Below are positions 17,819 through 22,248 of a stretch of DNA of 64,000 nt, one piece after another. The first letter of the stretch is position 1, and each line of letters starts with the position of its first letter. The notes beneath the pieces were generated by a model. That model was not told the DNA's origin, did not search any database, and was given only the letters and a program-made list of their open reading frames with translations. The position numbers and the translations under genes are program-made. This stretch comes from Pedobacter helvus. Its GTDB lineage: Bacteria > Bacteroidota > Bacteroidia > Sphingobacteriales > Sphingobacteriaceae. The stretch lies in NCBI RefSeq assembly GCF_005925325.1, contig NZ_SRMP01000005.1, forward strand, positions 496,001 through 560,000. Reading direction: 5' to 3'.

Positions 17819-19063
17819 TTAACCATTTACTAAAATTCCTTCTTCTGCTATAGCTTTAATATCTTGTTCGCTATAGCTAATTCTGCCAGTTTGGGCAATG
17901 AAAATATCTTTATTTACCAAAATGTCTTTGTTTTCTATCAGGTTTTTTAAGCTTACACTTCCAATCACATATTTATAGTCGTTGCGAGAGAAACGCTCAG
18001 AGATATTCTCGATTTGTAGTTTCTCTACGGTGTATTCATGTTGGTAGCGTAAATAAACTTCCAAGCTCACCTTATCTGTGTGGATCAAACCGTTTTGCTG
18101 CTTGTATTTTTTGTATTCGTAACGATAATCGTAACGCAATGCGGCGATGTCTGAAAGTACAGCGGCACCTGTAGGATGGCCACCAGCACCTTTGCCGAAG
18201 AAGAATTGCTTGTCGGCAAAAGCAGCTTGCACGGTTACGCCATTGTACTCGTTTTCTACGTTGTAAAGGAAGTCATCGCTCTTCACAAACTTTGGCAATA
18301 CAAAAGTGATGACCTGTTTGGTGCTGATTTTTCTGGTAGTTGGCACCAACTTGATTTTGTAATTTTTTTCTTTAGCGTATTGAATATCTGCGTCGCTCAG
18401 GTTTTGGATACCGATGTTCAAAATCTTATCAGGATTTAAGAACAAACCGTAAGCGTGAGCAGTAGCAATGGTTAATTTAAACTTAGGATCGTAACCACCC
18501 ACATCTAAAATAGGGTTGGTTTCTGCAAAACCCAAATCCTGTGCTTCTTTTAAAGCAGCATCGTAACTAGCGCCTTCGTTAAATATTTTAGAAAGAATGT
18601 AATTCGATGAACCGTTAAAAATACCACTGATGCCATGCAAAAGCTCATTATCATAGTATTCTTCTAAGTTTCTGATGATTGGAATACTACCACAAACCGC
18701 ACCTTCATATAACAATGAAGTGCCGTATTTTTCTTGTAAATGAACCAATTCTTCCAAGTGGGTAGCAATCATTTTTTTATTGGCTGATACCACGTTTTTC
18801 CCATTGGTTAATGCTCTTTTGGTGATGTTATAAGCCGCGTCTGCATCATCAATTAACTCTACAACGGTATTGATTTCAGGATTGTCCAAAATCTCGTCAT
18901 GTGAGGTAGTGAAAAGATGTGCATCTAAAGTTCTGCGTTTTTTAGGGTTTTTGATGGCTATTTTAACAATTTCTAGATTTAGGTTTTGTGCTTTAATGAT
19001 GTCGTGTAGACCTTGTCCAACAACTCCAAATCCAAATAATCCTATTTTAAGTTTCTTGCTCAT
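17819..19063 (-). CDS. hom: Homoserine dehydrogenase
   Basis: It reduces aspartate semialdehyde to homoserine, the branch point toward methionine and threonine. The N-terminal Rossmann motif GLFGFGVVGQGL binds NAD(P)H. The substrate region carries VSANKKMIA and the family signature around ISGIFNGSSNYILSKI and AETNPILDVGGYDPKFKL. The 414-residue length fits a monofunctional enzyme without fused aspartokinase. A C-terminal segment after residue 320 is unlike the usual ACT domain and cannot be assigned by eye. It is the last gene of metY-metX-hom, so it supplies homoserine to the O-acetylation step encoded just upstream. Confidence 0.9.
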   Translation of the reverse strand: MSKKLKIGLFGFGVVGQGLHDIIKAQNLNLEIVKIAIKNPKKRRTLDAHLFTTSHDEILDNPEINTVVELIDDADAAYNITKRALTNGKNVVSANKKMIATHLEELVHLQEKYGTSLLYEGAVCGSIPIIRNLEEYYDNELLHGISGIFNGSSNYILSKIFNEGASYDAALKEAQDLGFAETNPILDVGGYDPKFKLTIATAHAYGLFLNPDKILNIGIQNLSDADIQYAKEKNYKIKLVPTTRKISTKQVITFVLPKFVKSDDFLYNVENEYNGVTVQAAFADKQFFFGKGAGGHPTGAAVLSDIAALRYDYRYEYKKYKQQNGLIHTDKVSLEVYLRYQHEYTVEKLQIENISERFSRNDYKYVIGSVSLKNLIENKDILVNKDIFIAQTGRISYSEQDIKAIAEEGILVNG

Positions 19064-19171: not shown

Positions 19172-20275
19172 CTAAGCGGTGTGCTGTAGTTTAATTACTT
19201 TTTTATTTTTTGAGGCGTTCTCTTTTAAAAAGTTGCCAATGATGTTGGTTAACTTATCCGTTTCTATTAAAAATCCGTCGTGACCGTAGGCGCATTTAAT
19301 GCTAGCGAATTGTGCATCAACGATATGTTTTGCCAAAAACTGTTGTTCGGTAATAGGGAAGAGTACATCGTTCTCGATACCTATAACTAAAGTGTTTGCT
19401 TTCACTAATTTCAAAGCATCAGCTATGCTTTTTCTACCGCGACCAACATTGTGGCTATCCATCGCTTTGCTTAAATACCAATAACTGTAAGCATTAAAGC
19501 GTTTGCACAGTTTCTCACCTTGGTAGTTTTGGTAAGACGAAGCCCTGAAATCGGTTACTTTATCGTTTACACTTTCTAATTGTGTTTCGTTGTAAGCTTC
19601 GTAAGTTCTGTAAGAAAGCAAGGCAATGCTTCGTGCAGTTTTCAAACCTTTGTAACCACCATCAGGTTTGTTGGCGAAAAACGTTCTGTCGGTTGCAATT
19701 GCTAAACGCTGACTTTCGTTAAAGGCAATTCCCCAAGGTGAGTGAGCTGCATTGGTAGCTACTAAAATCAAGTTTTCGATTTCGGTTTTACCTGAGATAG
19801 ACCATTCCAAAGCTTGTTGGCCACCTAACGAACCACCAATCAATGTTTTAACCGTTTTAATTCCTAGATGATCTGCCAATATTTGATGAATTGCGGCCAA
19901 ATCTCTAATGGTAAACTCTGGAAAAGCCAAGTAATAAGGTTGGCCAGTCACTGGGTTTACGCTTAAAGGATTGGTAGTGCCGTAGTTAGAACCTAACACA
20001 TTTGCGCATACAATGAAGTGTTCTTCTGGATTGAACAAATCTTTAGCGCCAAATAGGCCTTTCCACCAATCTAATACGTCGGCATTAGCTGTTAAAGCAT
20101 GGCAAGCCCAAATCACATTATCTTTTTTTGCGTTTAATGTGCCATAGGTTTGGTATGCAATTTCCAGATTGCGTAGTTTTTTGCCGCTTTCTAGCTTGAA
20201 TATTTTTGAATATTTATGCACCCCTAAATCCCATAAAGGGGACTTGGCGCTTACCTTATTTATATTATTTGACAT
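19172..20275 (-). CDS. metX: Homoserine O-acetyltransferase
   Basis: It transfers acetyl from acetyl-CoA to homoserine. The alpha/beta-hydrolase fold shows the nucleophile elbow LIGGSLGGQQALEW, and Asp/His of the triad near VIGIENDVLFP and AYGHDGFLIE. The conserved part begins at about KYSKIFKLESGKKL. The residues before it (SPLWDLGVH) are encoded inside the left arm of an inverted-repeat element, so the natural start is uncertain. Candidates are the ATG used here, an ATG 15 bases upstream, or GTG at 20221, just at the edge of the repeat. It sits between metY and hom on one strand. Confidence 0.9.
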   Translation of the reverse strand: MSNNINKVSAKSPLWDLGVHKYSKIFKLESGKKLRNLEIAYQTYGTLNAKKDNVIWACHALTANADVLDWWKGLFGAKDLFNPEEHFIVCANVLGSNYGTTNPLSVNPVTGQPYYLAFPEFTIRDLAAIHQILADHLGIKTVKTLIGGSLGGQQALEWSISGKTEIENLILVATNAAHSPWGIAFNESQRLAIATDRTFFANKPDGGYKGLKTARSIALLSYRTYEAYNETQLESVNDKVTDFRASSYQNYQGEKLCKRFNAYSYWYLSKAMDSHNVGRGRKSIADALKLVKANTLVIGIENDVLFPITEQQFLAKHIVDAQFASIKCAYGHDGFLIETDKLTNIIGNFLKENASKNKKVIKLQHTA

Positions 20276-20320
20276 ATTTATTTTATACAATTTCCATAAA
20301 GCCCCTTTAGGGGTTTGGGG

Positions 20321-20322
<2 letters not shown>
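20221..20322. repeat. Inverted-repeat element, copy 1 (metY/metX gap)
   Basis: Arms CCCCTAAATCCC..AAAGGGGACTT and AAGCCCCTTTAGGGGTTTGGGG are complementary over about 22 bases and enclose an AT-rich centre of about 50 bases. One arm ends on the metY stop codon, the other lies in the first codons of metX. A second copy fills the gap at 48996-49092. Confidence 0.75.
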
Positions 20323-21622
<1,300 letters not shown>

Positions 21623-21660: not shown

Positions 21661-21701
21661 AAGGTACGTCAGTGGGGCGTATCCCGTTTTGGCGGGACCT
21701 T
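21661..21701 (-). promoter_or_regulatory. Hairpin between leader ORF and metY (possible attenuator)
   Basis: An outer AAGGT/ACCTT stem and an inner CCCG/CGGG stem enclose a GC-rich loop region, standing out in AT-rich surroundings. It lies about 40 bases past the leader stop and 45 bases before the metY ATG. No T-run follows, so it is not a simple intrinsic terminator. It could be an attenuator of another kind or a repeat element. Confidence 0.4.
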
Positions 21702-21739
21702 CCTAATTGTTAAAAATTACAAGTGGAAGATTTTTGAGT

Positions 21740-21874
21740 TTAGTACATGCGAATGCACATACACATCATCAATTGCATGTTGCAGCAATTGCCAATAATA
21801 GAAGTAGAAATAGGATTTTGTCCGACCTGCTCGGGAAACGTGTTTCTTGAAGAAATAGAATTAATTAGTTTCAT
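21740..21874 (-). CDS. Cys/Met-rich 44-aa leader peptide upstream of metY
   Basis: The ATG is 8 bases past the closing stem of the SAM riboswitch and the frame runs 44 codons to TAA. The peptide starts MKLINSISSRNTFPEQ and ends CCNMQLMMCMCIRMY. That last stretch holds 4 Cys and 5 Met in 15 residues. Translational leaders that monitor charged tRNA have exactly this design, with codons of the end-product amino acids bunched near the stop. The operon behind it makes homocysteine from a sulfide acceptor pathway, so Met and Cys are the right signals. No homology is claimed. The alternative is that CAT/ACA low-complexity on the other strand creates the Met codons by chance, but that does not explain the TGC and TGT codons. 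Confidence 0.65.
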   Translation of the reverse strand: MKLINSISSRNTFPEQVGQNPISTSIIGNCCNMQLMMCMCIRMY

Positions 21875-21881
21875 CTTATTA

Positions 21882-21990
21882 ATTTATATTTCCAAAATGC
21901 ACCATGCAATTTGGCCAGGAATTGGCACCTTCTCTTTTTGAGGGTTGCCAGTGGGTCTTTGAGCCTGTCTCTCGCCACTTCTTTATAAAT
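21882..21990 (-). ncRNA. SAM-I (S-box) riboswitch of the met operon
   Basis: Read on the minus strand, the order matches the S-box core. There is AAGAAGTGGCGAGAGA, then GGCTC, GACCCACTGGCAACC, and AAGGTGCCAATTCCTGGCC. A closing P1 stem ATTTATA/TATAAAT is formed by 21984-21990 and 21882-21888. S-box RNAs bind S-adenosylmethionine and repress methionine genes. The P1 3' strand runs almost to the ATG of the leader ORF, so the aptamer may control that initiation region as well as the transcript. Confidence 0.88.
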
Positions 21991-22039
21991 CAATACCGTT
22001 AAGGTGATTGACTTTTATTTGGTTCTCCAAATAATGTTT

Positions 22040-22070
22040 CAAATATAGGCTGTTTTTTGTTTCAAACAAA
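22040..22070 (-). promoter_or_regulatory. Promoter of the metY-metX-hom operon
   Basis: Read on the minus strand, TTTG (22070-22067) and TATATTTG (22047-22040) are separated by 19 bases, an exact Bacteroidota primary-sigma pattern. Transcription would start near 22033, about 40 bases before the riboswitch. Confidence 0.7.
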
Positions 22071-22248
22071 ATAAAATTCTGAAAAATAATTATCTATCTG
22101 ATTTTCAATTAGTTTTTTATAGGTTAGCTACAGATGCACCGATAATAATTTTAAATTAAATACCTATAAATGAAAAAATATATGTGTATCTGTTGCTAAA
22201 AAAAATATTTGAATGATATATCAAACTATTCTTGGAAGAATAAAATAC

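Follow-up and report, generated by a model that had tools for sequence, protein, structure and literature searches.

A SAM-I riboswitch followed by a predicted Cys/Met-codon leader 5' of metY in Pedobacter and related Bacteroidota

The ubiG-mccB-mccA operon of Clostridium acetobutylicum resembles the metY operon described here in being a sulfur operon under SAM control; the title of its primary paper reportedly names S-box and T-box together, and its T-box presumably reads tRNA-Cys. For the Cys-run leaders of Actinobacteria, Canestrari 2020 is said to be a further reference. According to the accessible part of PMC1262725, leader peptides with Cys runs are found in Actinobacteria at the cys operons of Mycobacterium, in Propionibacterium and at cbs of Bifidobacterium, and they share with the metY leader a short ORF, Cys codons near the stop, a place 5' of sulfur genes and the lack of an obvious terminator; the same text also proposes Rho for these leaders. 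The cysS attenuator of Rhodobacterales, uORFC-8-2, is like the metY leader in carrying tandem Cys codons in a stem (PMC8632094, in excerpt). Within Bacteroidota, the available portion of PMC9723704 gives, for Flavobacterium psychrophilum, clues to leader-peptide attenuation 5' of amino-acid operons; leaders of the Cys/Met kind may be among these without being named. In the retrieved passages of open-licence PMC full texts, including PMC7366714, PMC2965389 and PMC9943018, we found no mention of a SAM riboswitch separated from metY by a leader peptide, in agreement with the earlier note on this DNA, which had known of no such arrangement for metY in Bacteroidota. The same kind of full text gave no report of a Cys leader in Bacteroidota in the passages retrieved.

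The window, by which we mean the whole 64,000-nucleotide stretch analysed, comes from what we take to be a soil bacterium, and the nearest named match to its metY is that of Pedobacter xixiisoli (97% identity). The metY operon lies on the (-) strand, as do all features given here unless marked otherwise. A putative promoter at 22040..22071, read from sequence, consists of TTTTG (22071-22067), 19 nt and then TATATTTG (22047-22040); the Bacteroidota promoter consensus is TTTG-N19-TAnnTTTG, and a TAnnTTTG box occurs at the same place in L003, L004, L005 and L007 (alignment, opposite strand). The aptamer at 21881..21991 matches RF00162 over its full length (positions 1-108; 75.5 bits, E 6.8e-16, gathering threshold 44.4), which classes it as SAM-I by score and predicts SAM binding and expression switching. 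The 44-codon ORF that had been noticed between riboswitch and metY is real (21740..21874; ATG...TAA, MKLINSISSRNTFPEQVGQNPISTSIIGNCCNMQLMMCMCIRMY), and its last 15 sense codons (21743..21787) include the nine Cys or Met that had been counted, 4 Cys and 5 Met. Its start had been placed 8 bases after the riboswitch; with the aptamer at 21991..21881 and the ORF starting at 21874, the distance is 6 nt. A gap of 123 nt with conserved hairpins separates the leader from metY, which encodes O-acetylhomoserine sulfhydrylase (20321..21616; TIGR01326, 692 bits, cut-off 495), and the operon continues with a metX-like homoserine O-acetyltransferase gene (19172..20290; TIGR01392, E 3.8e-102, below the equivalog cut-off) and the homoserine dehydrogenase gene hom (17819..19063; NF004976, 309 bits, cut-off 205). 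Divergent from the operon are a cysE-like gene and cysM, with a cystathionine-gamma-synthase-like gene further out; the cysE-like and cystathionine-synthase-like matches are both below their equivalog cut-offs.

Two other places in this genome were considered. A short ORF at 22170 (+), reading MKKYMCICC before its stop, lies 5' of cysE and of a conserved TAACTTTG box. We rejected it as a chance occurrence; it is not kept in L003, L004, L005 and L007, and L003 has MIYLCICG near its place. The second SAM riboswitch of the genome (L002, G000:C5:424452-424555) is 5' of a metH-like homocysteine S-methyltransferase gene (PF02574), and no ORF of at least 20 aa between this aptamer and the metH-like gene has a Cys-rich tail.

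The comparison covered 80 metY relatives, the best of 590 in named genomes of Bacteroidota, a selection by which the sample leans to the most similar metY proteins. RF00162 was found 5' of metY in 77 of the 80, giving 78 loci with the window, and was not found 5' of metY in L019, L020 and the truncated L073. An initial regular expression for the aptamer motif had missed 21 of the 80; the Rfam scan found the aptamer in 18 of 20 of those (not L019 and L020) and none in the truncated L073. We called a leader where the first ATG after the aptamer opened an ORF of at least 15 aa whose last 15 residues included 4 or more Cys. This rule held in 68 of the 78 loci, compared with 0.1% of 3900 shuffled versions of these segments that preserved dinucleotide content, and the position of the ORF was conserved in all 78, with the first AUG 3-13 nt (median 7) past the aptamer, as against 5 of 42 metY riboswitches without a leader; these and the other leader-clade statistics ignore relatedness. 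Ten loci fall below the 4-Cys line, namely L004, L006, L023, L030, L035, L036, L056 (3 Cys), L050 (2), L052 (1) and L078, in the last of which a leader ending CCMCCCCCCC begins at the second AUG, the first being a decoy in another frame.

The residues of these leaders are distributed very unevenly. Across the 78 loci, Cys accounts for 35.4% of the residues in tails but 1.0% of those in bodies, the shares of Met being 10.7% and 0.6%, and Cys is the final residue of 40 leaders; both Cys codons are used (TGT 262, TGC 170). The earlier claim of a Met/Cys leader therefore stands as to codons bunched near the stop, but in riboswitch-bearing relatives the signal is mainly Cys, with Met second. The alignment of metY upstream regions that had been proposed as a check shows that members of the clade share the place of the ORF, its in-frame Cys/Met tail and a stop close by, whereas the body and the third bases of the Cys codons vary. 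The excess of third-position changes over close pairs is modest (284, 340 and 405 by position), and gaps in the nucleotide alignments of close pairs are mostly not multiples of three (120 are, 272 are not), so that these two measures lend little support and the strong evidence is the in-frame tail. On comparative evidence, the kind used throughout, the ORF is very probably a codon-bunching leader, Cys first and Met second. As in amino-acid leader attenuators, a short ORF bunches codons for pathway residues near its stop and is conserved in frame, and we infer that it would be translated, with ribosomes stalling under amino-acid limitation. In L054, L069 (OsmC-like), L068 (AhpC/TSA-like, Pfam) and L074 (by likeness only), a gene lies between leader and metY; the OsmC-like and AhpC/TSA-like kinds are both thiol-related.

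Beyond the closest relatives, aptamer and leader occur apart. RF00162 is present in 248 of 296 sampled Bacteroidota genomes, and 80 of 150 listed RF00162 places were examined, a sample biased to high-scoring aptamers because it was picked for genus spread; by best match, 42 of these precede metY, 18 metH, 8 metX and 6 metB, and 6 are unassigned. None of the 42 metY riboswitch segments, which come from elsewhere in the phylum, has a leader by our rule, the most Cys in any short ORF tail being 3 (L148); L116, from the window's own family, has MTITSSKSTFQACCITRMR. A class-level search found metY in 32 of 149 genomes at E <= 1e-100, and the upstream regions of 20 of 34 other places yielded 15 loci with an aptamer (2 partial at the sequence end). 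Of these 15, 12 have an ORF whose last 15 residues include 3 or more Cys; the aptamer is retained but such an ORF is lacking in L265 (which is the L116 locus), L266 and L267. Relatives that keep the riboswitch without the ORF, which had been named as a case that would count against the leader, do occur in distant Bacteroidota and in L116/L265. This distribution indicates that the pair is retained by nearly all of the closest metY relatives, that distant ones often have the riboswitch alone, and that the leader is a clade feature with losses. The predicted pairing of SAM riboswitch and Cys/Met leader is widespread in one part of Bacteroidota.

The converse is also seen. Among 13 metY loci without an RF00162 match (L019, L020, L269, L276, L278 and L330-L337), seven carry two tandem Cys/Met leaders (L333-L337, L276 and L278) and L331 has a single one, L331 and L333 being the same places as L268 and L270. 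No leader was found in the remaining five: L330 and L332, and, in an earlier and slightly different screen, L269, L019 and L020. Canonical terminators follow both leaders in L334 and L276 and the first leader in L278 (5 of 6 leader units), for example AAAGCCTCTCAAGTAAAATTTGAGAGGCTTT and a T run, and none was found after the leaders of the remaining riboswitch-less loci. The Met share of Met plus Cys is 24% where the leader follows a riboswitch (78 leaders) and 53% in 15 riboswitch-less leaders (Fisher p 2e-10). Relatedness is ignored in this comparison, and the 15 were collected with a Cys+Met criterion, which favours Met; that Met codons replace SAM sensing at loci lacking the aptamer is thus a lead only. 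In L330, a long AATC tandem repeat lies directly 5' of metY, with no riboswitch or leader there.

The aptamer of the leader clade differs from that of other metY riboswitches in its closing helix P1. The last 8 nt of the aptamer, the 3' strand of P1, are 11.7% G+C in 77 leader loci and 43.5% in 42 metY loci without a leader, and 75 of 78 leader loci have ATAA among the final 10 nt of the aptamer, compared with 13 of 42 others. In 13 Hymenobacter-group loci the P1 3' strand is still A/U-rich despite a locus G+C of 59.5%. The A/U-rich last 8 nt and the ATAA make P1 weak and place it where ribosomes would load. As in a translational riboswitch, the leader start site is within reach of P1 (3-13 nt, 78 of 78). 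SAM would, on balance, lower translation of the leader. The idea of two stacked sensors is supported in the main, although from their sequences the two look nested, with P1 abutting the leader start, rather than merely stacked.

Downstream of the leader, the RNA is structured. In an alignment of 25 Pedobacter-group sequences (A1; L012, L024 and Sphingobacterium-like loci left out), three helices are conserved. The first is a leader-end hairpin formed by the Cys/Met codons themselves (GUAUGUGC/GCAUGUAC, 21743..21762), with 80.5% of cells paired; its outer pairs are often broken (14 of 25 and 19 of 25 at two positions) and its four inner pairs almost never. The second, 3' of the leader stop, is a long-loop hairpin CUUCC...GGAAG (21699..21729) that is invariant in 25 of 25 and so speaks neither for nor against pairing. 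The third, GUCCCG/CGGGAU, is followed by a conserved UACGC (21681..21698), is 94.6% paired and has changes on both sides in 4 of 6 pairs. Of five measures on the whole structure, three (the covariation score and the cells that are paired or doubly changed) were higher than in any of 500 shuffles. The other two were not above shuffles, 336 of the 500 being as high for pairs with a double change and 473 for further pair types. Pairing of the Cys codons with downstream RNA is weak (mean z -0.42; window z +1.05), with z below -2 in only 8 of 78 loci, 4 of them among 12 Cytophagales-group loci. In 10 of those 12, a CAACA box (mostly AGCAACA) is able to pair with Cys codons, and a different element then follows.

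This compact Cytophagales-group element, UAGCC-UAYGR-YCUGCC-RRGUGAC-RGGY-UGGUUAY-GGCUA, lies between leader and metY in L071 (2384-2446) and nine other loci. It shows some covariation (4 of 9 pairs) in an alignment (A3) that leaves out L072 and L078, in neither of which it has a match, and no Rfam family matched it above cut-off. We rejected it as a free-standing or dispersed riboswitch, as it was found only at metY: among 53 sources its model (R1) matched the ten loci used to build it plus L261, which is the L054 locus again, and a scan of 16 genomes gave no match outside the metY place.

Intrinsic terminators are common at metY riboswitches without a leader, being present in 14 of 34 such loci with the gene 40-400 nt away, compared with 4.4% in shuffles. 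Between leader stop and metY there is no such excess (6 of 78, shuffles 7.1%); a simpler scan 3' of the leader gave 6 of 78 against 3.6% in shuffles, and a stricter U-tract threshold 0 of 78 against 2.1%. The Rho-independent terminator between leader and gene that marks classical trp/his-type control is thus not a feature of the leader clade, and the metY leader is not a case of textbook trp-type attenuation. Mutually exclusive RNA folds set by the position of the ribosome, another mark of such attenuators, may exist here: the hairpins are conserved, and pairing of the leader codons with downstream RNA is weak overall. The leader-to-metY gap is C-rich and G-poor (24.1% and 14.0%), with C exceeding G in 78 of 78 loci. 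This composition is compatible with Rho and is not proof; because C also exceeds G in 22 of 34 no-leader loci, the hint is weak.

Because a SAM sensor is directly followed by a leader of Cys and Met codons, the metY operon probably, though by no wide measure, reads two sulfur signals in series, which would amount to serial two-input control by SAM and then Cys/Met. In the proposed mechanism, bound SAM would let the A/U-rich P1 cover the ribosome landing site of the leader, leaving the leader untranslated and the operon off, and low SAM would allow the leader to be translated. With enough Cys-tRNA (and Met-tRNA) the ribosome would reach the stop and the downstream RNA would take up its off fold; a ribosome stalled at the Cys/Met codons would disrupt the leader-end hairpin, so that transcription or translation could reach metY. 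That a stall turns the operon on is inferred from the leaders of three riboswitch-less relatives, which precede ordinary terminators, and control would presumably be exerted through tRNA charging. For the off step, the most likely candidates are termination by Rho within the C-rich, G-poor gap and some other step driven by a hairpin, as opposed to a terminator with a U tract; for a Rho-type output by itself our confidence is low. Tentatively, the SAM-I aptamer may have no terminator of its own and leader translation as its sole output, forming an RNA AND gate (low SAM and uncharged tRNA-Cys/Met) with no protein sensor, the same job being done by two tandem leaders in some riboswitch-less relatives. 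The replacement of aptamer plus leader by tandem leaders would then make the two interchangeable modules. An AND gate also implies that metY is off in SAM-poor, Cys-rich cells, an unproven consequence that counts against the serial model.

Other explanations must be weighed against this serial control. Leaders without a riboswitch and riboswitches without a leader show that each module can work alone, and the two may be independent sensors, the aptamer acting through its own unseen platform and the leader separately, with either signal alone changing metY. Coupling is instead suggested by the constant spacing of 3-13 nt and by the A/U-rich P1. A terminator excess is absent between leader stop and metY; from aptamer end to leader stop, terminator-like matches do exceed shuffles (9 of 78 against 3.3%), which counts against the serial model, but all lie inside the ORF, 7 of them at Cys codons. 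We regard independence as distinctly unlikely. A somewhat unlikely alternative is that stalling on the leader acts, by way of the hairpins 3' of it, on the translation of metY or the decay of its mRNA and not on transcription, as reported for mycobacterial polycysteine ORFs. It would account for conserved hairpins without a U tract and has a precedent in translational Cys attenuation in M. smegmatis, as cited in the accessible part of PMC13236596, but in the window the final hairpin ends 64 nt 5' of the metY start, and three riboswitch-less relatives use intrinsic terminators.

The remaining explanations concern the ORF itself and leave little room. Its Cys/Met-rich tail might suit a functional small protein, for example a metal or thiol binder, yet the leader bodies vary freely in sequence and length, so that the codon cluster is kept and the peptide is not, and no family in NCBIfam or Pfam matches the ORF, which makes such a protein very improbable. 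A chance ORF inside a conserved RNA would explain why the Cys codons also form a conserved hairpin in Pedobacter. Across clades with differing surrounding RNA, however, 72 of 78 loci have their clustered Cys codons in frame with the first AUG (3 further loci give a tie, and in L004, L050 and L078 another frame holds the cluster), and together with the leader rule against shuffles this refutes chance as far as comparison can, leaving it a negligible probability.

The same genome holds a second Cys leader. The Cys-run leader ORF MKNNLNSMCCCCVNKSFTYLNARRSAFKIPIQQTF (L193 1533..1426 (-), G000:C1 at about 673.2 kb) stops 14 nt short of a gene whose product has a TonB-receptor plug domain, and no SAM riboswitch was found in L193. 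In the best 30 of 47 genus genomes with the receptor, the window's own included, an ATG-started ORF of 10-60 aa with CCC lies at most 400 nt 5' of the receptor in 21 loci, compared with 0 of 900 shuffles. These sequences suggest a Cys-leader regulon in Bacteroidota with the TonB receptor as second member, perhaps for sulfur uptake. The own-genome scans used a 15-base Cys-run pattern with 1 mismatch (6 sites) and TGYTGYTGYTG (92 sites, reversed control 26; 30 read as loci and 62 script-screened in 49 stretches). Only the TonB-receptor leader was convincing among their sites, with patterns that would miss the window's own leader. In L329, the scan gave an ORF ending MKCCC.

If our reading is true, the metY locus is a natural two-input RNA device in a phylum with little-studied RNA-based amino-acid control, and because related genomes carry its modules jointly, one at a time or as tandem copies, they allow the evolution of expression platforms to be tested. 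Compared with the described systems, several differences stand out. The Cys leaders of Actinobacteria, as far as the available texts describe them, have no riboswitch and no described Met codons and belong to another phylum and other genes, and the mycobacterial small ORFs lie on leaderless mRNAs, unlike the metY leader (PMC4633059, in part). In the accessible part of PMC8632094, uORFC-8-2 is followed by an intrinsic terminator, precedes cysS and has no riboswitch. At ubiG-mccB-mccA, in the material available on it, the SAM riboswitch is antisense at the 3' end and there is no leader peptide. The metY SAM-I riboswitches (S boxes) of other Bacteroidota share aptamer family and gene with the window, but have no leader (42 of 42), a G+C-richer P1 and, in 14 of 34, an intrinsic terminator. 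The arrangement at metY is new in that it combines two known kinds of RNA control, of which Cys leaders are known in other phyla.
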